From Dehalococcoidia bacterium (GTDB lineage Bacteria; Chloroflexota; Dehalococcoidia; SM23-28-2; HRBIN24), in contig JANXAP010000018.1 in the NCBI GenBank assembly GCA_025062275.1, forward strand, positions 124,001 to 188,000: DNA of 64,000 bases. Direction: 5' to 3'. The notes beneath the pieces are model-generated. The model was not told where the DNA came from and searched no databases. It saw only the letters and a list, made by a program, of their open reading frames with translations. The translations under genes were made by a program, and so were the position numbers. This document shows, piece after piece, positions 5,008 through 19,217 of this stretch. How positions within the stretch are numbered: position 1 is the stretch's first letter; each line of letters starts with the position of its first letter.

Positions 5008-5881
5008 AGATGGAGTTCACCACCTCTTGGATGCTGCGCTGCACATCCCGATCGTCGGTCAGGGCCCAGACCACCGCCACCTGGCACGCCCGTCGCGGCG
5101 GGATGCCGCTGGCGATGAGCTTGCCGGCGTAGATGAGGAGCCTGGTGCTGACGCCTTCGGCCAGGCCATGCTCCTTCAGGTTGCGCACCTTCTCGCCCAG
5201 CTTGGCCAGGGCTTCGGCTACCTCCTTCGATACGCCGGACTCGTGCTCGATGATCTTGGCCTCCACCTCGCGGGGCGGATAGTTGAACTCGATGGCCATG
5301 AAGCGCTGGCGCGTGCTGTGCTTCAGGTCCTTGAGGGCGCTCTGGTAGCCCGGGTTGTAGGAAATGACCAGCAGGAAGCCGTCGCGGGCCTCCACCACCT
5401 GCCCCAGCTTCTCGATGGGCAGTATGCGACGGTGGTCGGTGAGGGGGTGGATGAGGACGGTGGTGTCCTTCCGCGCCTCCACGATCTCGTCCAGATAGCA
5501 GATGGCGCCGGCCTTGACGGCGCGGGTGAGGGGGCCGTCGATCCAGCGCGTAGTCTCCCCCTCCAGCAGGTAGCGGCCCACCAGGTCGGAGGCGGTGAGG
5601 TCTTCGTGACAGGCCACCGTCACCAGGGGCAGGCCGGTGCGAGCGCCCTCCTTGCCCGTCACGTCGCGGATGATGGTGACCGGCCGCCCCAGACGGTAGG
5701 CCATGTACTCGACGAAGCGGGTCTTGCCGCAGCCGGTGGGGCCCTTCAACAGCACCGGGATCTTCTGCTGATAGGCGGCCGTGAACAGCTCCACCTCGTC
5801 CGCCACCGGGAGGTAGAAAGGCTCCTCCTCCAGGACGTATTCCTCGATGGCGTATTGGCGGTAGGTGGTGCGGTCTTCCAT
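5000..5881 (-). CDS. MoxR-family AAA+ ATPase, NorQ/CbbQ-like
   Basis: A 293-residue AAA+ ATPase. Walker A is GPTGCGKT at residues 47-54, Walker B is ICYLDEI with the acidic pair at 131-132, and the sensor segment is [10 protein letters not shown]. The sequence matches the NorQ/CbbQ branch, including [20 protein letters not shown] and the C-terminal [15 protein letters not shown]. The ATG at 5881 was chosen because GGAGGAAGG lies 11 bases upstream, inside the end of coaE; a longer in-frame extension upstream would overlap coaE further. The stop overlaps the start of the VWA gene by 8 bases, so the two are almost certainly made together and act as one complex. Confidence 0.93.
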
Positions 5882-5889
5882 GTTGTCGT

Positions 5890-6504
5890 TCACCTTCCTC
5901 CGGTGGACAGGCGGGCCTTGAGGCGTGCCCACTCCCGTTCCACCTGTCTGCGCGTGTCCTCCAGGTCGGTGTCAGTGTGGATGATGACCTGCGCCCGCCG
6001 CGCCCGTTCCTCCACGGGCATCTGGGCACGGACGCGGGCCAGGGCCTCTTCCATGCTTATGCCGCTGCGCTGGGCCGCGCGGCGTGCGGCCACCTCCGGC
6101 GGGCAGACGGTGACCCATACTTCGTCCACCAGGTCGTCCCAGCCCGCCTCCAGCAGCAGGGCCGCCTCCAGCACCGCCACCTCCACTCCTCTGGCAGCGA
6201 GCTCCTGCAGACGCTGTCGGATGGCCTCGCGGATGCGGGGGTGGGTGATGGCGTTGAGGCGTTGCAGTGCCTGGGGGTCCTGGAAGACGATGCTGGCCAG
6301 GCGGCGGCGGTCCACAGTGCCGTCGGCGGCCAGCACCTGGGTGCCGAAGGCGTCGATGATGTCCCGGTAGGCGGGGCCACCCGGGGCGTAGACCTGGTGG
6401 CCGATCTGGTCAGCGTTCAGGATCTCCGCCCCCAACTCCCGCAACATCTCCGCTACCGTGCTCTTGCCCGAGCCCAGGCCACCTGTGAGGCCGATGACGA
6501 ACAC
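5890..6504 (-). CDS. coaE: Dephospho-CoA kinase
   Basis: The last step of coenzyme A synthesis, phosphorylating the ribose 3'-OH of dephospho-CoA. The P-loop [12 protein letters not shown] is at the N-terminus, followed by the substrate-binding segment [10 protein letters not shown] and the lid region [11 protein letters not shown]. With the GTG at 6504 the protein is 204 residues and starts MFVIGLTGG, the usual length and register for CoaE. A longer frame from TTG 6564 would add 20 residues that the family does not have. It sits 8 bases upstream of the MoxR gene in the same direction, probably as a shared transcript of convenience. Confidence 0.92.
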
Positions 6505-6603: not shown

Positions 6604-7605
6604 CTACCTTCTGGCTTCGGCCTCCTTCATCTCCCGCACCTTCTTGATAAGTAGCGGGACGACCTCCTTCCAGTCGGCCACCACCGCCCAGCGGGAGGCC
6701 TTGAAGATGTTGGCCTCGGGATCCTTGTTGATGGACACGATATTCTTCACCTGCGAGATGCCGGCCATGTGCTGGGACGCGCCCGAGATGCCCACGGCGA
6801 TGTACAGGTCGGGGGTCACCACCTTGCCCGTCAGCCCCACCTGGGCCGAAACGGGATACCAGCCCAGGTCGCAGGCAGCCCGAGAGGCACCCACAGCACC
6901 CCCCAGCAGCTCGGCCAGCTCCTCCAGCATCCGGAAGCCCTCCGGACCGCCCAGGCCGCGGCCGCCGGCCACCACGATGCGGGCGTCTTCCAGGCGCACG
7001 CCCTCCGCCTTCTGCTTGACACGGCCCAGGACGCGGGTTCGCACAGCGCCAGCGTCTATCCCCGCCTGGACCTTCTCCACCTCGCCCTGGCGAGACTCGT
7101 CGCGCTCGATAGGCTCCTGCGACTTGGCCCGCAGGGTGACCACCGCCGGAGAGGTGTTGAAGGAGTACTTAGCGTGGGCGTTGCCGCCATAGCACGGCCG
7201 GGTGACGATGATGCGTCCGTCCTGGACCGCCACGTCGATGGCGTCCATGGTCACGGCGGTGCCGAGGCGGGCGGCCAGCCTCGGCCCCAGCTCGCGGCCC
7301 GCCATCGTCTGGCCCAGGAGCACCAGCGCCGGGTTCTTCTCCCGCACCAGTCGCTCCAGCACCGGCACGAAAGCGTCGCCCTGGTACTCTTGCAGGAGAG
7401 GGTCATCCACCAGAAGGACCGCATCGGCCCCCTGGGCGATGGCGTCTCGGGACTGGCCGTCCAGTCCGGCCCCCAGGATGGCGCAGAGCACCCGGCTGCC
7501 CAGCTGGTCGGCCAGGCGGCGGGCCGCACCCAGAAGCTCGAAGGTGATGGGGGCCAGCCGCCCCTCCTCCGTCAGTTCGCCGAAGACCAGGATATCGTTG
7601 GCCAT
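6604..7605 (-). CDS. etfA: Electron transfer flavoprotein, alpha subunit
   Basis: The FAD-binding subunit of ETF, 333 residues. The C-terminal FAD domain is intact: RIVVAGGRGLGG, then SAQVGLTGKVVTPDLYIAVG and GISGASQHMAGI, which contact FAD. The domain end NKDPEANIFKASRW is also typical. The ATG at 7605 was chosen because AGGAGCAGGGAA lies directly upstream and the protein then begins MANDILVF. It follows etfB after 18 bases and so forms an etfB-etfA operon. The ETF would collect electrons from acyl-CoA dehydrogenases or similar flavoenzymes and pass them to the membrane iron-sulfur protein encoded upstream. Confidence 0.96.
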   Translation of the reverse strand: MANDILVFGELTEEGRLAPITFELLGAARRLADQLGSRVLCAILGAGLDGQSRDAIAQGADAVLLVDDPLLQEYQGDAFVPVLERLVREKNPALVLLGQTMAGRELGPRLAARLGTAVTMDAIDVAVQDGRIIVTRPCYGGNAHAKYSFNTSPAVVTLRAKSQEPIERDESRQGEVEKVQAGIDAGAVRTRVLGRVKQKAEGVRLEDARIVVAGGRGLGGPEGFRMLEELAELLGGAVGASRAACDLGWYPVSAQVGLTGKVVTPDLYIAVGISGASQHMAGISQVKNIVSINKDPEANIFKASRWAVVADWKEVVPLLIKKVREMKEAEARR

Positions 7606-7623
7606 TTCCCTGCTCCTCACCCT

Positions 7624-8424
7624 CTAGATGAGCTTGGCCTCGCGCAGGCGCTGGAGGAGGCGGTCCACCTTCTCCTCCACGGTGTCGCCCTCGATGAACT
7701 CGGTCTCGACCTTGGTCTGGGGCACATACAGGGCCTCGATGTTGACGCGGTTCTTGAGCTGGGAGGGGTCGAGGCCCAGGTCGGCCGCCGTCCATACCGT
7801 CACCTGCTTGCGGGCGGCCATCATGATCTGTCGCAGCTGGGGGTAGCGGGGCTCGCCCAGCTCGTTGGAGACGGTCACCACCGCCGGCAGGGGCGCCTCT
7901 ACCGTCTCGAAGCCGTCCAGCAGCACCCGCTCGGCCACCACCTTGCCATCCTGGACCTTCACGTCCTTGACGATGGTGATGCAGGGGATGCCCAGCAACT
8001 CGGCCAGGGTGGGCCCCACGACACCCATGTCCCAGTCCACCGCCTGACGGCCGGTGATGACCAGGTCATAGGGCGCCAGCTTCTGGATGGCCGCCGCCAG
8101 GACCTGGGCGGTGACCCAGTGGTCGGCTTCGGCCAGCGCCGGGTCGTTGATGAGGACGCCCTCGTCGGCGCCCATGGCCAGGCAGTGCTTGATGGCGTCG
8201 CGGAAGGACTCGGGCCCCAGGGAGAGGACGGTGATCTTGACATCGCCCAGGGCGTCGCGGATGCGCAGGGCCGCCTCGACGCCGATGGTGTCGAACTGGC
8301 TGGGGACGGGGGCTATGCCGGGCGCAGGTATAACCTTCTTGGCCGCCTCGTCCACCCGGAACTGGGAAGCCGGCGTCTCGGGGTCGGGCACCTGCTTCAC
8401 GCAGCAGATGATATGCAGCGACAT
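7624..8424 (-). CDS. etfB: Electron transfer flavoprotein, beta subunit
   Basis: A 266-residue ETF beta subunit. The N-terminus MSLHIICCVKQVPDP, the AMP/FAD-binding stretch DLVITGRQAVDWDMGVVGP and the recognition loop LPAVVTVSNELGEPRYPQLR match the family. The ATG has GAGGGG at suitable spacing. It lies between the membrane oxidoreductase gene (91 bases upstream) and etfA. Whether the ETF is bifurcating cannot be settled here; the absence of a partner dehydrogenase next door and the presence of a quinone-linked oxidoreductase favour a non-bifurcating, respiratory role. Confidence 0.96.
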   Translation of the reverse strand: MSLHIICCVKQVPDPETPASQFRVDEAAKKVIPAPGIAPVPSQFDTIGVEAALRIRDALGDVKITVLSLGPESFRDAIKHCLAMGADEGVLINDPALAEADHWVTAQVLAAAIQKLAPYDLVITGRQAVDWDMGVVGPTLAELLGIPCITIVKDVKVQDGKVVAERVLLDGFETVEAPLPAVVTVSNELGEPRYPQLRQIMMAARKQVTVWTAADLGLDPSQLKNRVNIEALYVPQTKVETEFIEGDTVEEKVDRLLQRLREAKLI

Positions 8425-8514: not shown

Positions 8515-10764
8515 TCAGCGGACGGAGGCGGCGCGAGAGTAGGCAACGCTGCGCTCCAGCAGTTCGGCCACGTCCAGCACCTGCAAGCCCTGTTTGGCGG
8601 CCTCGGGAACCGACCCGGCCCCCTCCTCGAACATCTGCAGGCAGAAGGGGCAGGCCACGGCTACCACTCGGGCGCCGCTGGCCACCGCCTCGGCGGTGCG
8701 GGTGTGGTTGATGCGCCTGCCCTTGCTCTCCTCCACCCACATATGACCGCCGCCGGCCCCGCAGCAGAAGGTGTGCTTTCGGTGGCGCTCCATCTCGACC
8801 GTTTCCAGGCCCATGGCCTGGAGCACCTGTCGCGGCTCGGCGACGATGTCGTTGTGACGGGCCAGGTAACACGGGTCGTGGTAGGTTACCGGGAAGCCCC
8901 ACAGCTCCTCGATGGTCCCCGGCTGCAAACGCCCCTCGGCCACCAGCTGGGCGAACAGCTGCGTGTGGTGCACCACCTCGAAGTGGCCGTCCAGCTGCGG
9001 ATACTCGTGGCGGATGGTGTTGAAGCAGTGGGGGCAGTTGGCGATGACCTTCCTGACCCCCTTGGCCTTGAAGGTCTCGATGTTCTGCTGGGCCTGCATC
9101 TGGAACAGGTACTCGTTGCCCAGGCGTCGGGCAGGGTCGCCGGAGCAGGTCTCCTCCGCCCCCAGCACGCCGAAGGAGACCCCAGCCTGCAGCAGCAACC
9201 GCACGATGGCCTTGGTGACCTTCACGTTGCGCTCCTGGAGGGCGCCGGTGCAGCCTACCCAGTAGAGGTACTCCTGGGTGCCGTCGAACATGGGCACCTC
9301 GACCCCTTCCCGGGCCAGCTCCTCGATCCAGGTGGTGCGGGTGAGCTGGGTGCCCCGCCAGGGGTGCCCCCTCTGCTCCAGCTGCATGAGGGTGGCCTGC
9401 GCCGTCTCGGGCATGTTGGCCTGCTCCATCACCAGGTAACGACGCATATCCATCAGCTTGGGGATGTGCTCGATGAACAGGGGACACTGGTATTCGCAAG
9501 CCCCGCACGTCACACAGTCCCAGATGGTGTTGAAGGAGACCACGTCTCCAGCCACGGGGCGCTCGTCCTGTACCTCCTCCCCTTTGCGGCGGGCGGCCAG
9601 CAGCCGCGGCCCCATCTCCGTCAGGTAGCGCTTGATGTCCTGCAGGAAGCCCATGGGCGTCAGTTCCTTGCCGGTGTTGTAGGCGGGGCAGTGGGCCTCG
9701 CAACGTCCACAGCGGACGCACACGTCCACGTCCATGAGCTGCTTCCAGGTGAAGTCCCTGAGATAGCCGGCGCCGAAGCGCTCCGCCGTCTCGAAGTCGG
9801 CGATGGGGGGCAGGGCCGTGCCGGCCAGCGCGGCCCCGGTGGGCGAGAGCTTGCGCAGGAAGATGTTGGCCGACCCCAGCAGGATGTGCGATATCTTGCC
9901 GTAGCCTACCCAGGCCACCCAGCCCGTGGCCATGGCCAGGTGCAGCCACCATAGGCTCTTGTGCAGCATTTCCATGAAGCCCTGGCTGGCACCCGACTCC
10001 AGGGCTGCCTTGCCGATTAGGAAGCCGATGGGCGACCAGGGTGCCCAGTCAGGGTCCGACGCTATGCCGCCGTGGACGTCGATGGTGGCCCCCTGCAGCT
10101 CGGTCATGCCCACCCGCATGCCCTCGATGACGAACCCGGTCAGCAGGATGGCCAGCATGAGCCACAACAGGGCGACGTCGTCCCACAGGCTGCCCAGGCG
10201 CAGCTTAGGGTGCTTCCAGAGGTAGCGGCGGTAGAGGGCCATGAGGATGCCTACCGTGGCGGCCACCCCGGCCAGGTCCAGGGCCAGGGAGTAGCCGAGG
10301 TAGACATGCCCCTCCAGGTACTCCACGAAATCGTCGTGGAAGGCCAGCATCACCGTCCCGATGAAGAGGAACGTCCAGCCCCAGAAGATGAGAAGGTGCA
10401 TCAGTCCGGCGTAGAGGTCGTTGGGTAATCGTCCCTGCCCCACGCCGTAGAGGAGGAAGAAGCGGGCCCTCTCCCAGGGGCGGTCCCACCGCTCCTCCTT
10501 TTTGCCCAGTAGCCACAGCCGCAGCCGCGAGAGGGGGCCGTAGGCCAGGACCAACAGGATGACGGCGGTGACGGCGTAGACCAGGATGCGGGCCCACTTG
10601 GCGATGTTGAAGAAGACCTGCCGCGTCGCCTCGCCCATCCCCTCGCTGGCGGCGATGACGGCTATGGCCGCCACCAGCGGTATGAGGGCCACGGCCGTAA
10701 AGAAGCTGAGGGCGGTCAGCAGCTGGCGGACCCGTAGAGAGCGGACTTTGACCTCGATGGCCAT
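8515..10764 (-). CDS. Membrane iron-sulfur ETF:menaquinone oxidoreductase (DUF224/HdrD-like, EMO type)
   Basis: A 749-residue integral membrane protein. The N-terminal ~300 residues hold about six hydrophobic helices of the nitrate reductase gamma/heme b type. Two [4Fe-4S] ferredoxin motifs follow: CVRCGRCEAHC at 349-359 and CVTCGACEYQC at 417-427. Two CCG domains come next, ending in HDPCYLARHND and TFCCGAGGGHMWVEE. Proteins of this layout next to ETF genes are known from syntrophic fatty-acid oxidisers as ETF:menaquinone oxidoreductase. Here the gene is directly upstream of etfB-etfA. The inference is that it takes electrons from reduced ETF and reduces menaquinone. Start ATG follows AGGGGGACAGG. 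Confidence 0.9.
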   Translation of the reverse strand: MAIEVKVRSLRVRQLLTALSFFTAVALIPLVAAIAVIAASEGMGEATRQVFFNIAKWARILVYAVTAVILLVLAYGPLSRLRLWLLGKKEERWDRPWERARFFLLYGVGQGRLPNDLYAGLMHLLIFWGWTFLFIGTVMLAFHDDFVEYLEGHVYLGYSLALDLAGVAATVGILMALYRRYLWKHPKLRLGSLWDDVALLWLMLAILLTGFVIEGMRVGMTELQGATIDVHGGIASDPDWAPWSPIGFLIGKAALESGASQGFMEMLHKSLWWLHLAMATGWVAWVGYGKISHILLGSANIFLRKLSPTGAALAGTALPPIADFETAERFGAGYLRDFTWKQLMDVDVCVRCGRCEAHCPAYNTGKELTPMGFLQDIKRYLTEMGPRLLAARRKGEEVQDERPVAGDVVSFNTIWDCVTCGACEYQCPLFIEHIPKLMDMRRYLVMEQANMPETAQATLMQLEQRGHPWRGTQLTRTTWIEELAREGVEVPMFDGTQEYLYWVGCTGALQERNVKVTKAIVRLLLQAGVSFGVLGAEETCSGDPARRLGNEYLFQMQAQQNIETFKAKGVRKVIANCPHCFNTIRHEYPQLDGHFEVVHHTQLFAQLVAEGRLQPGTIEELWGFPVTYHDPCYLARHNDIVAEPRQVLQAMGLETVEMERHRKHTFCCGAGGGHMWVEESKGRRINHTRTAEAVASGARVVAVACPFCLQMFEEGAGSVPEAAKQGLQVLDVAELLERSVAYSRAASVR

Positions 10765-10866: not shown

Positions 10867-12084
10867 ATGGCCCTAGAGCTGCGCGAGGCCACCCCCGAAG
10901 AGTTGCCCGAGGTGGCGCTGGTAACTGCCATCGCCTTCGATGCCGACCGCAGCCCCGATGGCCTTCTGGGCCAGGGCGTGTACGAGCTGTTCACTCCCCT
11001 GGTCTGCCGCGAGGACGGACGGCTGGTAGCCTGCCTGTCGGTTGGGACCATGGCCGCCTTCTACGAGGGCGCCCCGGTGCCCCTGGGGGCGGTGTCCATG
11101 GTCTCTTGCCTGCCGGAGGAGCGGCGGCGAGGCCTGGTGGGCCGCCTGCTGGCCTACTCGCTGCAGTACATGCGCGAACGGGGCCTCTGCCTCTCGGGCC
11201 TGTTCACTCCCCACCCGTCCCTGTACCGCCGCTACGGCTGGGGGGTGGCCCATGCCTATCTGCTCTGCAGCGTGGACCCCAAGGCCGTGGACGTCCGCTG
11301 GCTACCTCGCCCCCAGGGCCGCCCCCGTCGTGTGGACCCCGAGTCTTGGCCCCTGGTGGACGAGTTGCACCGGGAGTGGGCATCCCGCCGCAACGGCCCC
11401 CTGCTGCGCAGCGAGGGCTGGTGGCGGCGGGCCGTCTTCGGCGGCCTTTACTGGCCCCGTCGCCTGCCTCGCGACTGCGCCGTTTGGCAGCGGCCCGACG
11501 GGACGTACGGCGGCTTCATGGTCTACGAAGCCGGGGTGCGCCGCGGCGTACGGGAACAGGAGAACTACTGCCATGTCTTCCAGCTTGCCGCCCTGGACGG
11601 GGACGCCTATGCCGGCCTCCTGCGCCATGCCCTGTCCTTCGACCTGGCGCGGGAGGTGACTATGGTCCTGGACCTGCACGATCCCCTGCCGGCGGCCCTC
11701 GACGAGGCGCAGCGGATTCAGGCCACCCGCCACCTGGGGATGATGCTGCGGCTGGTGGACGTGGCCGAGGCCCTCTCTCGCCGCCCCATCGCCGCTCCCG
11801 ATGGCACCCGCCTGCTGCTGGGCATCGAGGACGCGCATGCCCCCTGGAACCGGGGCGTGTGGCTGCTGGAGGCCGAGGGCGGCAGGCTGCGATTGCACCC
11901 CTCCCGGGAAGCGCCCCAGGTCTCGGCCGACGTCGGCAATCTGGCCCCCATCTACAGCGGCCTGGTGTCGCCGCTGGAGGCAGCTCGCACAGGGCTGCTG
12001 CAGGTGCACGACCCGACGGCAGTGGAGTCGGCCCAGCGACTGCTGGGAGCTACCCTGCCCGTCTCCTGCCCCGAGAGCTTCTAG
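10867..12084 (+). CDS. Eis-family N-acetyltransferase (GNAT plus SCP2-like domain)
   Basis: A 405-residue protein of the Eis/GNAT family, which acetylates amines such as aminoglycosides or lysines using acetyl-CoA. The first GNAT domain includes the acyl-CoA binding loop VSCLPEERRRGLVGRLL and the SGLFTPHPSLYRRYGWG segment typical of Eis. A second degenerate GNAT domain follows. A sterol-carrier-like C-terminal domain ends with the terminal carboxylate region expected of Eis enzymes. Substrate unknown. It stands alone, divergent from the ETF oxidoreductase gene, and its stop is one base from the stop of the convergent acyl-CoA ligase gene. Confidence 0.88.
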   Translation: MALELREATPEELPEVALVTAIAFDADRSPDGLLGQGVYELFTPLVCREDGRLVACLSVGTMAAFYEGAPVPLGAVSMVSCLPEERRRGLVGRLLAYSLQYMRERGLCLSGLFTPHPSLYRRYGWGVAHAYLLCSVDPKAVDVRWLPRPQGRPRRVDPESWPLVDELHREWASRRNGPLLRSEGWWRRAVFGGLYWPRRLPRDCAVWQRPDGTYGGFMVYEAGVRRGVREQENYCHVFQLAALDGDAYAGLLRHALSFDLAREVTMVLDLHDPLPAALDEAQRIQATRHLGMMLRLVDVAEALSRRPIAAPDGTRLLLGIEDAHAPWNRGVWLLEAEGGRLRLHPSREAPQVSADVGNLAPIYSGLVSPLEAARTGLLQVHDPTAVESAQRLLGATLPVSCPESF

Positions 12085-12085
12085 T

Positions 12086-13696
12086 CTACTCGGGGGCCAC
12101 AGCTGCCAGGGACAGCTCGTTCTTGGGCTCCCCCAGGCGCTTGCGCAGCTCCGTCTTCAGGACCTTGCCCAAGTAGTTGCGGGGCAGGTCGCTGACGAAG
12201 GCGTAGTACTTGGGGGCCTTGTAGCTGGCCAGACGCCCCTTGACATAGGCCGTCAGCTCTTCGGGAGTGGGCAGGTCGTTGGGGTCCTTGGGGACGATGA
12301 TGGCCTTCACTTCCTCGCCCCACTCCTCGTCGGGGACGCCAATTACGGCCGCCTCGGCCACCTTGGGGTGCTGCTCCAGCACCGCCTCTATCTCGCCGGG
12401 GGCGATGTTCTCGCCGCCACGGATGATGAGGTCCTTGGTTCGGCCGGTGATGTAGACGTAACCGTCCTCGTCCATGAAGCCCACATCGCCCGTGTGGAGC
12501 CAGCCGTCCTTGAAGGCCTCGGCCGTTTCCTGCTCCCGCTGCCAGTAGCCGGCCATGACCCGCGGCCCCTGGACGACGATCTCGCCCTCGTGGCCGGGGG
12601 GTAGCAGGTTGCCCTGGGGGTCCATGATGGCCACCACGACATCCGGCATGGGGCGGCCGACGGAACGAAGACGACGCAAGGCCTTCTCCCGCTCGGGGCC
12701 CGGCTCGTCGGGGATGCGGTGGTCCTCCGGCCCCAGGAAGGTGAGGGTGGAAGTGCTCTCCGTCTGCCCGTAGGCGTTCATGAAGCCCACGTTGGGCCAC
12801 TTCTTGAAGCGTTCGATGGCCTTGATCAGCACCTCGTAGGGCATGGGGGCGGCGCCGTAGGCCAGCAGCCGCAGGGAGCTGAGGTCGTACTTGTCGAAGT
12901 CGGGGTGCTCGATGACCCGCTTGACCATGGTGGGCACCAGGAAGCTGTGGGTGACGCGATAGCGCTGGACCGCCTCCAGCCAGGCGGTGGGGTCGAACTG
13001 GGGCAACACCACCAGTGTGCGCCCTCCCCAGACCGCCGCCAGCATGGTGGTAGCTCCGGCGATGTGGAAGAAGGGCACCGAGACCAGCTGCACCTCCCAC
13101 TCCTCCGCCGTCGGGTCGGCGGGGGAGACGGTGTTGGTCACGTAGACCGAGAGGGCCAGGTGGGTCAGCACCACCCCCTTGGGCAGGGCGGTGGTGCCGC
13201 TGGTGTACATGAGGATGGCAGGCTCCGAGTCGTCCACGTCCACGAAGACCTCTTCTGGCTGGTGCTGGGCGAGGACGTCCTCGTAATAGGGGATGCCCTC
13301 GGGCCTGGCGTCATAGCAGATGACATGGCGTAGGCCCGGCACCTCCGGCCTCAGGGAGTTGGCCAGCTCCAGGTACCGCTCCCCCACGAAGAGGACCGAG
13401 GCCTGCGAGTTGGTGAGCATGTAGACCAGCTCCTCCCGCTTGGCCCGGTAATTCAGGGGCACGAAGGTGAGGCCGAGCTTCGCGCAGGCGTAGTAGGTCT
13501 CCACATAAGGGATGGAGTTGAGGGAGAGGACGGCCACCTTCTCCCCCTTCTGGACTCCCAGGGCCTGCAGGGCATTGGCCAGCCGCAGCGTCCGCTCCTG
13601 CAACTGGGCGAAGGTCTCCTCCTGTCCCTGGCAGATGATGCCCACCCGGTCGGGCACCATGGAGGCAGCGATGGTCAAGAACTCAGCCGTGTTCAT
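12086..13696 (-). CDS. Acyl-CoA synthetase (AMP-dependent ligase)
   Basis: A 536-residue ANL-superfamily ligase that activates a carboxylic acid to its CoA thioester. The P-loop is MYTSGTTALPKGVVLTH, the adenine motif is AYGQTEST, and the hinge and C-terminal motifs are WLHTGDVGFMDEDGYVYITG and RTKDLIIRGGENIAPGEIE. The catalytic C-terminal Lys region SYKAPKYYAFVSDLPRNYLGK is present. Length fits long- or medium-chain or aryl ligases. It is the last gene of a minus-strand run behind two crotonases, so its product is likely processed by them; chain type is not predictable. Confidence 0.92.
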   Translation of the reverse strand: MNTAEFLTIAASMVPDRVGIICQGQEETFAQLQERTLRLANALQALGVQKGEKVAVLSLNSIPYVETYYACAKLGLTFVPLNYRAKREELVYMLTNSQASVLFVGERYLELANSLRPEVPGLRHVICYDARPEGIPYYEDVLAQHQPEEVFVDVDDSEPAILMYTSGTTALPKGVVLTHLALSVYVTNTVSPADPTAEEWEVQLVSVPFFHIAGATTMLAAVWGGRTLVVLPQFDPTAWLEAVQRYRVTHSFLVPTMVKRVIEHPDFDKYDLSSLRLLAYGAAPMPYEVLIKAIERFKKWPNVGFMNAYGQTESTSTLTFLGPEDHRIPDEPGPEREKALRRLRSVGRPMPDVVVAIMDPQGNLLPPGHEGEIVVQGPRVMAGYWQREQETAEAFKDGWLHTGDVGFMDEDGYVYITGRTKDLIIRGGENIAPGEIEAVLEQHPKVAEAAVIGVPDEEWGEEVKAIIVPKDPNDLPTPEELTAYVKGRLASYKAPKYYAFVSDLPRNYLGKVLKTELRKRLGEPKNELSLAAVAPE

Positions 13697-13752: not shown

Positions 13753-14508
13753 CTAGCCCTCCCCGGCAAGCGACCGCCGCACGCGGGCGTCCATCTGCAG
13801 GCGACGGGCCAATCGGCCGTCCTGACGGAGGGCCTCCTCCAGGGGCAGGTCCAGGCCGCGCCGCAGGGCCCTCTTGGCCAGGCCCAGGGCCTGCGGCGGC
13901 CGCTCCAGCAGGCGGCGGGCCAGCGCCTCGGCCTCGGCGTAAAGCTGGGCGCGGGGCACTACCCGGTGCACCAGCCCCCAACGTAGCGCCTCCCAGGCGT
14001 CGATGGGGTCGCCGGTCAAAATCATGTGCAGGGCCACCCCCCTGGGCACGGTGCGGGGCATGGTCTGGGTGCCGCCGGCCGACGGGATGTATCCCAGGTT
14101 CACCTCCGGCAGCCCCAGGCGGGCGTCCTCGGAGGCGATACGGATGTCGCAGAAGAGGGGCAGCTCGATGCCCGCACCCAGGGCGTAGCCGTGGATGGCT
14201 GCCAGAAGGGGCTTGGGGTACTCCTCCAGGACGCCCCACAGGTCCCTCTGCTGGCGGGCGCGACGGGCCTCCACGTAGGAAGGGGCGGTCCCGAACTCGG
14301 AGATGTCGGCGCCAGCGCAGAAGGCCCGCTCGCCGGCGCCGCGGAAGATGACTGCCCCCACCTCCGGGTCGTAAAGGGCGGCGTGGACGACCTCCCACAG
14401 CTCGTCCCGCATCTGGAGGTTGATGGCGTTCAGGACGTCGGGCCGGTTGAGGGTGACCCAGGCCAGGCCCCCCTCCTTCTCATAGATGATGGTCTGGAAG
14501 CCGTCCAC
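13753..14508 (-). CDS. Enoyl-CoA hydratase/isomerase (crotonase), copy 1
   Basis: A 251-residue crotonase that hydrates 2-enoyl-CoA. The oxyanion-hole segment is AFCAGADISEF and the second motif is GYALGAGIELPLFCDIRIAS. Both catalytic glutamates expected from mitochondrial hydratase are in place (the E of GIELPLF and the E of RLGLPEVNLG), so a true hydratase is plausible. It lies 18 bases downstream of two small paralogous genes and 56 bases upstream of the acyl-CoA ligase, all on the minus strand. Confidence 0.92.
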   Translation of the reverse strand: MDGFQTIIYEKEGGLAWVTLNRPDVLNAINLQMRDELWEVVHAALYDPEVGAVIFRGAGERAFCAGADISEFGTAPSYVEARRARQQRDLWGVLEEYPKPLLAAIHGYALGAGIELPLFCDIRIASEDARLGLPEVNLGYIPSAGGTQTMPRTVPRGVALHMILTGDPIDAWEALRWGLVHRVVPRAQLYAEAEALARRLLERPPQALGLAKRALRRGLDLPLEEALRQDGRLARRLQMDARVRRSLAGEG

Positions 14509-14526: not shown

Positions 14527-14766
14527 CTACAGCCAGTCGGGGCGGCGCACGGCGCTCTTCTCCTTGTTGCGCAGCGTCCTCTCCAGGTCGGCGTTGATCT
14601 TCTCCGTCAGCTCGCGCATGCCCGCGGAGCCAGTGCGCATCTCGTCGGAGAACCAGCGGCGCAATCGCGCCCGGTCCTCGTCGGGCAGCCCCGCCTCCTG
14701 CACCAGCTTCTCCAGCACCAGGGCCAGCAGCTCGCGCGCCTCGTCCGTGTCCAGCTCGACCCTCAT
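14527..14766 (-). CDS. Tiny acidic helical protein, paralogue of the preceding gene, unknown
   Basis: 79 residues, not recognised. It aligns without gaps over about 70 residues with the product of the gene at 14763-15068: LDTDEAR against LEPDEAW, then RARLRRWFSDEMRTG against RARIRRWRNDRAVGT, then EKINADLERTLRNKE against LEMNRALGNYLDEKT. It is predicted helical, with no membrane segment or signal peptide. Its ATG overlaps the stop of that gene as ATGA, so the two are translationally coupled. Position between two crotonases suggests a structural or regulatory role in acyl-CoA metabolism, but this is only inference. Confidence 0.75.
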   Translation of the reverse strand: MRVELDTDEARELLALVLEKLVQEAGLPDEDRARLRRWFSDEMRTGSAGMRELTEKINADLERTLRNKEKSAVRRPDWL

Positions 14767-15068
14767 GCCTGCACCTCCCCCGTGGAGGCGGGACGGGCGG
14801 CCAGCCGCAGGTCGCGGGTGGTGATGTAGCGGCCGCGCATGCGGATCTGGCGGGTGGTCTTCTCGTCCAGGTAGTTGCCCAGGGCACGGTTCATCTCCAG
14901 GCAGAGCTGGTCCATCTCCACCGTGCCCACCGCGCGGTCGTTGCGCCAGCGGCGTATCCTGGCCCGCGCCTCCCCCGAGATGCCGCTGTGGTCGACGATG
15001 TAGGAGGTGATGACCAGCATCAGCGACCAGGCCTCGTCAGGCTCCAGCAGCACCTGCACGGCTGTCAC
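14763..15068 (-). CDS. Small helical protein, paralogue of the following gene, unknown
   Basis: 101 residues. The core (residues ~5-75) is the same small domain as in the downstream 79-residue protein, here with a 25-residue basic C-terminal tail containing RMRGRYITTRDLRLAARP. Begins MTAVQVLLEPDEAWSLMLV. Its ATG has GGAGGTGAC a few bases upstream. It lies 10 bases downstream of the second crotonase gene and overlaps the next gene by 4 bases. No family is recognised. Coding potential is supported by coupling, ribosome site and conservation between the two copies. Confidence 0.75.
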   Translation of the reverse strand: MTAVQVLLEPDEAWSLMLVITSYIVDHSGISGEARARIRRWRNDRAVGTVEMDQLCLEMNRALGNYLDEKTTRQIRMRGRYITTRDLRLAARPASTGEVQA

Positions 15069-15078
15069 CTCCTTCGGG

Positions 15079-15843
15079 TCATGTGCCGGTGAACCGGGGC
15101 GGCCTCTTCTCCAGGAAGGCCCTCACCCCCTCGGCCCGGTCCTGGGTGGTCTGGAGGATGATGGTCAGGTCCGTCTCGTAGCGCAGGGCCTGCTCTAGGG
15201 GCATCTCGCAGCCGCGCTGGACGGCCTCCTTGGCGTAGCGCACGGCCAGAGGCCCCCGCTGGGCGATGCGCTGACAGATGGCGTCGGCCTCCTCCAGCAG
15301 GCGCGCCCTGGGCACCACCCGGCTCACCAGCCCCAGGGCGAGAGCCTCCTGGGCGCCTATCTCCTGGCCGGTGAGGACCATGTAGGTGGCCCAGGCGCGA
15401 CCCACGGTCCGCGCCAGCCGCTGGATGCCGCCGGCCAGAGGTATGAGGCCCAGGCCCGTCTCGGGCAGGGCGAAGCGGGCGTCATCGGAGCAGATGCGCA
15501 CGTCGCAGGCCAGGGCTAGCTCCAGGCCAGCGCTGATGCACTCGCCGCCGATGGCGCAGACCACCGGGCGCGGCAGCTGGGCCAGCGGCTCGAAGGCGCG
15601 GCTGAGGCCGCCCCAGTCCAGCCCTTCGTCGGCCGCGAGGGAGGGCCAGTCCCAGCCACGGCTGAAGTGGGGGGCGTCGCCGGCCGAGAGGAGCACGACA
15701 CGCACCCCCTGATCCGGCTCGATGGCCTCGCAGGCGTCGGCCAGCTCGGCCAGCAGCAGGGGGTCGACGGGATTGCCCCGCTCCGGCCGGGCGAGGGTCA
15801 GGTAGGCGATGGGGCCTCGCAGCTCCAGGCGAAGGGTCTGCAA
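15079..15843 (-). CDS. Crotonase-family protein, copy 2, with unusual oxyanion segment
   Basis: 254 residues of crotonase fold. It starts at TTG 15843, which is supported by GGAGGAAC 7 bases upstream. Both glutamate positions are kept (GLELALACDVRI and FALPETGLG). The first oxyanion segment, normally FCAGADI-like, reads HFSRGWDWPSL, so activity may differ from ordinary hydration. About 30% identical by eye to copy 1. First gene after ubiE in the same direction; followed by the two small paralogues. Confidence 0.9.
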   Translation of the reverse strand: MQTLRLELRGPIAYLTLARPERGNPVDPLLLAELADACEAIEPDQGVRVVLLSAGDAPHFSRGWDWPSLAADEGLDWGGLSRAFEPLAQLPRPVVCAIGGECISAGLELALACDVRICSDDARFALPETGLGLIPLAGGIQRLARTVGRAWATYMVLTGQEIGAQEALALGLVSRVVPRARLLEEADAICQRIAQRGPLAVRYAKEAVQRGCEMPLEQALRYETDLTIILQTTQDRAEGVRAFLEKRPPRFTGT

Positions 15844-16868: not shown

Positions 16869-17216
16869 ATGCGGTTCCTGATCGCCCTCATCGCGGGGTT
16901 GTCGGTGGCGGGAGCGGTATTCGGCTTCGCCGCCACCAACACGGTGCCGGCCACTAGGGCTGGCGACGGCGCCAATACCATCAGCGGCTACACCGTCACC
17001 AATGTGGTCTACACACTCGACTCCACCAACCCCCAGAACATAGCCAGTGTAAGCTTCGACTTGGACGCTGCGGCCAATGAGGTGAGGGTCAGGCTTCAGA
17101 CTGGCGGCACCTGGTTCAACTGTACCTCCGGCGGCGACAACAACTGGAGCTGCACCACTACTGGTCAGACGGTCGCCGGAGCTAACGAACTGCGGGTGGT
17201 GGCCAAGAGCAACTAG
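16869..17216 (+). CDS. Small exported protein with shared NxVPxTR leader, copy 1
   Basis: 115 residues. Signal peptide about residues 1-22 (MRFLIALIAGLSVAGAVFGF) followed by AATNTVPATRAGDG. The mature part is Ser/Thr/Asn-rich and predicted beta, with YTVTNVVYTLDS, a FDLD motif, and two cysteines spaced C-x9-C (85 and 95) that could form a disulfide. It ends NELRVVAKSN. Strong ribosome site AAGGAGGTG. A near-identical layout is seen in the frameshifted copy at 17306, and the N-terminal motif recurs in the RTX protein at 19214. The SipW-type peptidase encoded next door is the likely processing enzyme. I know no named family for it; it could be a fibre or surface subunit, but this is inference. 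Confidence 0.8.
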   Translation: MRFLIALIAGLSVAGAVFGFAATNTVPATRAGDGANTISGYTVTNVVYTLDSTNPQNIASVSFDLDAAANEVRVRLQTGGTWFNCTSGGDNNWSCTTTGQTVAGANELRVVAKSN

Positions 17217-17226
17217 CTAGCCTGTG

Positions 17227-17266
17227 TAGGCCCGGCCGGCTGCTCCCTTTCCGCCGGCCGGGCCTA
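17227..17266 (+). terminator. Perfect 14-bp hairpin after the small exported-protein gene
   Basis: Arms at 17227-17240 and 17253-17266 pair perfectly with a 12-base loop. No T-run follows, so termination may be factor-assisted or the hairpin may act as an mRNA stabiliser, lowering but not preventing read-through to the peptidase gene. Confidence 0.6.
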
Positions 17267-17305
17267 ATCATCGCAGGGGGTATGGAGTCGTGACAGGAGG
17301 TGCGG

Positions 17306-17649
17306 GTGAGGTTGGTCTCGGCGCTGGCCGCCGTCCTGGCCGTGACGGGGTCCGTGTCGGGAATGGCGGCCTGCAATGTCGTGCCGCCCACCAGACTGGG
17401 CGATGGAGCTAGCGCCATCTCGGGCTATACCGTAAGCAATATCACCTACACCCTCGATTCCGACGACCCTCGACTGCTGTACGAGGTGGCCTTCGATCTC
17501 GATGGCTTCGCTAGCGACGTCTGGGCCCGTATCGACCCGCAGGTTCGTGGGTCCAGTGCGCCCATTCCGGCGGCAACAGGTGGTCCTGCAAGGTCATCGG
17601 CCAGAGCGTCCAGTCGGCCACCGAGCTGAGGGTCGTCGCGGCGCAGTAG
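17306..17649 (+). pseudogene. Small exported protein, copy 2, broken by a one-base deletion
   Basis: Starts at GTG 17306, with AGGAGG 5 bases upstream. The first ~78 residues align gap-free with copy 1, including the signal peptide, AACNVVPPTRLGDG and SGYTVSNITYTLDS. After the codons for RIDPQVR (about 17545-17547) the frame is wrong and reading stops at TGA 17627. In the next frame the copy-1 C-terminus continues: WVQCAHSGGNRWSC, then GQSV and ELRVVAAQ, to TAG 17649. Adding one base there makes the two proteins align without any gap and keeps the C-x9-C spacing. It is therefore either a recent mutation or a sequencing error. Residue 23 is Cys where copy 1 has Thr. Confidence 0.8.
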
Positions 17650-17687
17650 GGCGGGCCGGGGCTGTACTATGGGAGCGGGACGGGCAC

Positions 17688-19217
17688 ATGTCGCTGGGCA
17701 GGCTGGCGGTCTTCCTCGTCACGGCGGCTACCTTGGCCGCCACCTGGCTGGTGTTGCCGCCGCCGGTGGGCCTGGGGCTCCGCCTGGTGGCCGTCCAGGG
17801 GTCGTCCATGGTGCCCACCCTGCAGCCGGGCGACCTGGTGGTGGTGATGCCCAGCGAATCCTATCTGCCCGGCCAGGTAGTGGCCTACCGGTCGGACATG
17901 CTGGGCGGTGTCGTGCTGTTGCACCGCATCCAGGGCTACGACGCGGGGGGCAGGCTCATCACCCGTGGGGACGCCAATGGGTTCGATGACAGCGACCGGC
18001 CCCGTCCGCAGCAGGTGATGGGCGTCATGAAGATGCGGCTGCCCCTGGTGGGCAAGTACCTGCAGGCGGTGCCCCAGCCGCCCGTTGCCGCCTCCATCGC
18101 CGGCGGGGCCATCGCCGCCGCCGTGGCCATGGGCAGCGGGCGGAAGCGGCGGCAGCTGGTGATGCGTCCCGGGCCGGTGCTGGGTGGACTGGCAGCGGGC
18201 GCCCTCGCCCTGGCGGCCGGCGTCGCCCTGGTGGTGGCCCAGCAGGTGCTGCCGCCCACGGCCGAGGTCAACCGGCCTGTCGCCTACCAGCACCAGGGGC
18301 AGTGGGAATACAGCGCCCCCTCCCTCGCCCCCATCTACGATTCCGGCGCTCAGGCCCGCACCGGCGATCCCCTGTTCTGGCGTCTGAGTCGGCCTCTCCA
18401 GGTCTCCTTCACCTACCGCCCGCCGCCGGAGCTGGAGGGGGCCAACGGCACCCTCCTCCTTTACGCCCGCTTGGGCGACTACCTGCCCACCGGCTGGCGC
18501 CGCACCCTGCCCGTGGCCGGGCCGGTGGCCGTGCAGGGGGGCGAGGCCACGGTGGAGGGCGTCCTCGACCTGGCCCTCGTCCAGCAGACCTGGCGCGAGG
18601 TGATGGCGGCCATCGGCCAGGAGAACCCCACCCCTGTGCGGCTGGAGCTGGTGGCGGCGGTGACGCTGAACGGCAGCGTGTTGGGCGAGCCCTTCCGTGA
18701 CGAGGCCACCTTCTCCCTTCCCTTCCGCCTCGACCAGATCGGGGCTGCCTTGGAGCCGCCCCAGAGCGGCTCGCCGGCCCAGTTGCTCTCGCCCGTGGTG
18801 GACAAGACGGCTGTGGTGCGGACGGTGGAGGAGCGCCGACTGGAGCTGGGGCCCATCGACCCCACCCTGGAGCAGGCGAGGAATGTGGGCCTTTACGCCA
18901 TCTGGGGCGGCGGTGCGCTCCTGGTCCTGACCGCCGTCCTCTGCCTCCTGGCCGTCCGCTCGCCGGCGGGCCTGGCCTCCCTCATGGGCGCCCAGGTGGT
19001 GCGGGTGGCCCGCCTGCCCGAGGACGTCCGCGAGGCGGCGGTGGTCACCGGCGTGGGCGACATCGTTCAGGCGGCCAAGATCACCGGGAGCCCTGTCCTG
19101 GCCGACCCCGAGGGGGCCCTGATGGTGGTCTCTTCCAGCGGCTCTTACCTGCTGCCGGTGCCGGCCGGCAACGGGCGGCGGCTCCCCTGGAACGGCCGCA
19201 GGGGGCGCGGGCCATGA
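17688..19217 (+). CDS. SipW-type (S26B) signal peptidase fused to DUF5305-like membrane domain
   Basis: 509 residues. The N-terminal half is a signal peptidase I fold: membrane helix 1-25, VQGSSMVPTLQPGDLVVVMP with catalytic Ser40, LLHRIQGYD with His79 in place of the Lys of ordinary bacterial enzymes, and ITRGDANGFDDSD with the conserved Asp. The Ser-His arrangement marks the SipW/archaeal/ER S26B group. After a helix (~132-150) and a basic linker comes a second membrane helix (~163-185), an extracellular beta domain with PLFWRLSRPLQVSFTYRPP, and a final helix near 400 with a ~100-residue cytoplasmic tail. That second half resembles archaeal DUF5305 proteins, which are often encoded beside such peptidases. 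The ATG at 17688 follows the broken copy-2 gene by 38 bases; the stop overlaps the RTX gene. Confidence 0.85.
   Translation: MSLGRLAVFLVTAATLAATWLVLPPPVGLGLRLVAVQGSSMVPTLQPGDLVVVMPSESYLPGQVVAYRSDMLGGVVLLHRIQGYDAGGRLITRGDANGFDDSDRPRPQQVMGVMKMRLPLVGKYLQAVPQPPVAASIAGGAIAAAVAMGSGRKRRQLVMRPGPVLGGLAAGALALAAGVALVVAQQVLPPTAEVNRPVAYQHQGQWEYSAPSLAPIYDSGAQARTGDPLFWRLSRPLQVSFTYRPPPELEGANGTLLLYARLGDYLPTGWRRTLPVAGPVAVQGGEATVEGVLDLALVQQTWREVMAAIGQENPTPVRLELVAAVTLNGSVLGEPFRDEATFSLPFRLDQIGAALEPPQSGSPAQLLSPVVDKTAVVRTVEERRLELGPIDPTLEQARNVGLYAIWGGGALLVLTAVLCLLAVRSPAGLASLMGAQVVRVARLPEDVREAAVVTGVGDIVQAAKITGSPVLADPEGALMVVSSSGSYLLPVPAGNGRRLPWNGRRGRGP

Follow-up and report, generated by a model that had tools for sequence, protein, structure and literature searches.

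Crotonases are textbook homo-oligomers, and our search of the literature on heteromeric or pseudoenzyme members of the family recovered only the PaaFG system, BoxC and the enzymes of steroid degradation. The PaaF-PaaG hydratase-isomerase of E. coli (4FZW) unites two different crotonases, encoded in one operon, in one particle (PMC4498308), in which PaaF and PaaG make up separate homotrimers, each with a complete active site, and small subunits are absent. BoxC carries two crotonase domains on a single polypeptide, with an active centre in only one of them (PMC4498308). The steroid side-chain enzymes ChsE1-ChsE2 and ChsH1-ChsH2-Ltp2 are acyl-CoA enzymes of a beta-oxidation-like pathway and contain paired paralogues (PMC6678751). 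In the rat mitochondrial enoyl-CoA hydratase (1DUB, 9RGS), a homohexamer, CoA is bound at the subunit interface, where Phe279 (helix H10) and Lys282 of the other subunit contact it (PMC13126182).

The locus described here was found in a window of 64,000 nucleotides (i.e. the whole stretch of DNA that was analysed) from a Dehalococcoidia bacterium. Two small paralogous genes, A and B, are encoded between two crotonase genes, ECHu upstream and ECHd downstream (Table 1). The original prediction held that the small proteins are two subunits of a heteromer with a role in acyl-CoA metabolism; it had missed that the flanking crotonases are complementary and are probably the very enzyme that A and B serve. 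ECHu and ECHd resemble PaaF and PaaG in being two crotonases of one operon and differ from them in that complementary parts have been lost. BoxC is a single polypeptide, whereas the present locus has a separate gene for each of its two crotonases and, in the middle, genes for two small proteins. The likeness to the steroid side-chain enzymes is that of acyl-CoA enzymes made from paired paralogues; ChsH1-ChsH2 is a MaoC-like hydratase and not a crotonase, and we know of no A/B-like subunit in the heteromeric enzymes of that pathway. ECHu and ECHd belong to the same fold family as the rat homohexamer, but the two contributions that meet at its CoA site appear here to be split over two proteins. 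Our best explanation, to which we give an even chance, is that the two paralogous crotonases make up a heteromeric enoyl-CoA hydratase, of which A and B are the small subunits, probably as a heterodimer.

Table 1. Genes of the A/B operon in the window, and the exceptional B-A pair of locus L103 (positions within that locus; genome G133)
Feature	Position	Strand	Remarks
ECHu, upstream crotonase	15079..15843	-	ECH_1, E 1.6e-60; H10 motif DRAEGVRAFLEKR intact
Gene B	14763..15059	-	98 aa (most likely start), all-helical paralogue of A; ATGA overlap with A
Gene A	14527..14766	-	79 aa, all-helical in model; invariant C-terminal D-W
ECHd, downstream crotonase	13753..14508	-	ECH_1, E 2.4e-61; core intact, C-terminal CoA-gripping helix degenerate
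Acyl-CoA ligase	12086..13696	-	AMP-binding, E 2.8e-90; conserved downstream neighbour
Fe-S protein, 749 aa, probable ETF:menaquinone oxidoreductase	8515..10764	-	two CCG domains and a 4Fe-4S dicluster
EtfB-like gene	7624..8424	-	named from sequence and order; same order in many loci
EtfA-like gene	6604..7620	-	named from sequence and order; same order in many loci
B-A pair of L103 (G133)	6788-7287		flanked by unrelated genes, LytR-CpsA-Psr-like on one side

Both small open reading frames exist on the minus strand at the place originally proposed, and their composition is that of coding sequence (GC by codon position 0.70/0.41/0.97 in A and 0.66/0.48/0.93 in B). In comparison with a genome of the same genus, dN/dS is about 0.12 for each gene (0.062/0.528 for A, 0.044/0.361 for B), which, together with the codon-position composition, implies that A and B are real genes under purifying selection. 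The ATGA overlap between them is real, the RARxRRW core occurs exactly in both proteins (RARLRRW and RARIRRW) and their paralogy is borne out by BLASTP (32% identity over 74 residues, E 2e-10). The size of B, given at first as 101 residues, had to be revised. The GTG at 15068 falls within the Shine-Dalgarno sequence of B, aaggaggtgacagccGTG, which is followed by the GTG at 15059, and the homologues of B begin with MQVxLE, matching a start at the latter position; the start is therefore most likely GTG 15059.

The duplication with divergence that had been proposed turned out to be ancient. A profile-profile comparison relates A to B with a probability of 98.7, and a joint tree separates them into two clades with a support of 1.0. 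Near-invariant positions common to both are Glu9, Trp38 and the Asn at A58/B57, whereas the invariant C-terminal Asp-Trp is found in A alone and B has a basic tail. The two clades and the separate conserved features point to an old duplication with its own constraint on each copy. Modelled singly, A and B reached moderate confidence (pLDDT 76 and 68, respectively), with helices at residues 7-25, 29-42 and 48-73 of A. The original prediction named no family for the pair, and no known family was found to account for it: scans of the window proteins against Pfam and NCBIfam gave no match above a curated cutoff, sequence profile searches of the PDB gave no match, and in Foldseek searches of the two models against the PDB the best E-values were 0.99 and 4.4, i.e. 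none below 0.001. A Pfam scan of 41 A/B members returned weak and scattered matches only. On these searches, A and B are small paired proteins of an undescribed family. A match of A to an aminoglycoside phosphotransferase (15.5 bits at a cutoff of 550, E 0.0059) was taken as chance.

In the host's class (Dehalococcoidia-like Chloroflexota), the profile of A finds matches in 117 of 393 genomes, nearly always two per genome, and a spot check of seven genomes of other classes with the same profile gave no match. The B profile matches 9 of 400 genomes sampled across the phylum, all nine within the host's class, and a scan of 84,980 species with a pattern built from a subset of the B sequences yielded 11 loci, which bear Chloroflexi or Dehalococcoidia titles where a lineage is named and of which that of Bacterium HR24 is the nearest; class and family names here follow such record titles. 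From 85 loci, 84 A and 84 B genes were read. In the 82 pairs of which both members are readable, B always precedes A on the same strand; the two genes have an ATGA-type overlap of 4 bases in 28 of the 82 and a gap no larger than 5 bp in 61. Loci with only one of the two genes are contig ends. The pair is present in two copies in two genomes of the class.

The expectation that homologues always occur as pairs next to crotonases thus stands as regards the pairing, and nearly so as regards the neighbours: ECHu lies upstream of B in 80 of the 85 loci, and four of the other five are at or near a contig edge. The fifth, L103, is a true exception, namely an intact B-A pair without crotonase neighbours in a genome (93% complete) that contains no ECHu, no ECHd and a single generic crotonase. 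It is possible that the operon is missing from this assembly, which at such completeness would be a coincidence. Even this exception is a pair, though in an unrelated setting, so that the outcome named beforehand as refuting the prediction (no homologues, or single ones in unrelated settings) was not encountered. Conversely, ECHu-ECHd pairs without A/B were found in several lineages (seven loci), and in one further locus, L150 (genome G004), ECHu is followed by a remnant of the start of B (5845-5955, MQVILKTGETMRALMSLIVSQV; 17 bits against the B profile), then by unrelated open reading frames and then by ECHd. It follows that A and B can be dispensed with and that at least one loss of them has occurred.

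The identification of the flanks as two crotonases and an acyl-CoA ligase was confirmed by Pfam (ECH_1, AMP-binding), and this acyl-CoA setting is conserved across the A/B loci. The genes are commonly arranged as ECHu, B, A, ECHd, ligase, 749-aa Fe-S protein, EtfB and EtfA; ECHd and the ligase are often separated by genes for one or two membrane-anchored proteins that contain Cys. A downstream ECHd was seen in 70 loci. In several loci ECHu-B-A occurs without an adjacent ECHd, which lies elsewhere in the four genomes that were followed; as ECHu-B-A is kept there, it represents the tightest unit. Among the proteins between ECHd and the ligase, one of L129 (4677-5108) and those of 45 similar open reading frames in 36 loci are membrane-anchored and, read by eye, Rieske-like, with two Cys kept (98% each) and the histidine ligands lost; the one member scanned had no Pfam match. 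In the window, a (GNAT + SCP2-domain) Eis-like acetyltransferase is encoded on the opposite strand within the operon (10867-12084, plus strand), as in a few near relatives. Upstream of ECHu, a penicillin-amidase family gene was observed in eight loci of one group of genomes (PF01804 in L105), and SDR, RDD and small membrane proteins in other groups of genomes.

Both crotonases are members of PF00378 (205.0 bits for ECHu and 207.7 for ECHd, at a cutoff of 27). All 80 upstream copies are nearest to the ECHu of the window and all 70 downstream copies to its ECHd, which identifies the two as old paralogues. They have lost opposite parts of an active hydratase. ECHd has both catalytic Glu in 70 of 70 copies (Glu118 and Glu138 in the window, in a numbering that begins 3 residues before the open reading frame), whereas the DRxEGxxAF motif of helix H10, with its Phe/Lys contacts to CoA, is present in none of the 70 and in all 80 copies of ECHu. 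The first catalytic Glu is found in 54 and the second in 42 of the 80 ECHu; the window copy has both, but many of its homologues have lost them, and one family has little left of the oxyanion-hole region. The same opposition is seen in sequence conservation. Median pairwise identity in ECHu is 62% for the C-terminal part and 24% for the core, with the core the more conserved in 0 of 1500 sampled pairs; in ECHd it is 55% for the core and 28% for the C-terminal part, which is often short, with the core the more conserved in 98% of pairs. Ten generic crotonases of the class, used as a control, do not show such asymmetry (31% against 31%; 26 of 45 pairs). The sequences by themselves establish that the pair exists, is conserved and has a fixed order, that it lies in an operon and that the crotonases' losses are complementary.

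A phmmer alignment of ECHu with the rat enzyme (query 12-251, chain 18-258) places F243 and K246 at Phe279 and Lys282. The opposite losses, combined with the position of the rat CoA site at a subunit interface, are most simply read as an obligate heteromer with composite active sites, and a composite site formed by ECHd and ECHu would be the best reading of the two proteins. The C-terminus of ECHd is already eroded in loci without A/B, which rules out the presence of A/B as the explanation of that loss; nor, given such pairs, are A and B essential to the pairing of the crotonases. Homology of A/B to the crotonase C-terminal region, by which they might replace the lost helix, was likewise rejected (hhalign probability below 1%).

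With a confidence just short of even, we propose a four-component hydratase of Dehalococcoidia-like Chloroflexota, i.e. a split crotonase in which a catalytic ECHd and a CoA-gripping ECHu would share a site and be held by the A/B heterodimer. ECHd would provide the catalytic core, namely the oxyanion hole and the equivalents of Glu144 and Glu164, and ECHu would provide helix H10 in trans, its Phe and Lys gripping the CoA of the neighbouring subunit's site. A and B would clamp or assemble the asymmetric ECHd-ECHu complex and may line the acyl-tail side. The physical association, the contribution of H10 in trans and the role of A and B are what we infer from the gene-level patterns; that A and B are accessory subunits is suggested by their place between the crotonases, their fixed order, the separate constraint on each and their confinement to genomes of which nearly all contain ECHd: a strong match to ECHd was obtained in 114 of the 117 genomes with A against 167 of the 276 others (Fisher p 1e-16, uncorrected for shared ancestry). 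Against this explanation stand the ECHu-ECHd pairs without A/B, the intact B-A pair in the genome of L103, the tree distances given below and the retention of both Glu in the ECHu of the window.

The retention of both Glu would also fit a rather unlikely alternative, in which ECHu and ECHd each work on their own as homomers, on successive or on different substrates, their asymmetry reflects separate specialisation and A and B are passengers of the operon. The occurrence of ECHu-ECHd without A/B and of some ECHd elsewhere in the genome agrees with it as well, but the loss of Glu and oxyanion hole in many ECHu beside an invariant H10 is unexpected for an independent enzyme, ECHd consistently has no H10 motif of its own, and purifying selection on A and B argues against passengers.

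Correlation of tree distances is highest between A and B among the pairs tested (0.87), and neither crotonase is favoured over the ligase as the partner of A (A-ECHu 0.54, A-ECHd 0.66, A-ligase 0.84; B-ligase 0.81). The high values for the ligase would be in keeping with an A/B heterodimer that bound acyl-CoA or free acyl chains and shuttled them between ligase and crotonases like a small acyl-CoA-binding protein, and the size of about 80-98 residues, the all-helical models and the conserved position beside ligase and crotonases are in line with such a carrier. We nevertheless consider it unlikely, as the 41 members scanned had no Pfam match to ACBP or any other carrier, the PDB held no fold match at E < 0.001, and several loci keep ECHu-B-A where ligase and ECHd do not adjoin it. 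We regard it as very unlikely that A and B have no part in catalysis and act as regulators linked to the operon or as proteins that bind nucleic acids. They are small, charged and helical with a conserved RRWR stretch, the pair of L103 stands alone among unrelated genes and 7 of 21 A members match RdfA weakly (best E 7.5e-4); against this, the window proteins match no known DNA-binding family, a place within a coding run between two crotonases would be unusual for a regulator, and A and B are two diverged, co-encoded paralogues whose order is fixed.

A lineage with complementary decay of two crotonase paralogues, and with two small proteins of no described family encoded in the middle, would offer a plain example from nature of an enzyme turned obligately heteromeric, and it provides named genes to test. 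The breakdown of organic matter by the host's class is poorly understood; roughly one in three of its sampled genomes have the operon, and there a role for A/B would annotate an unnamed family. Elsewhere in the window, two adjacent paralogous small exported proteins are encoded on the plus strand (16869-17629; NTVPATR.GDG..ISGYTV.N..YTLDS), adjoined by a signal-peptidase-like open reading frame (17502-19217).
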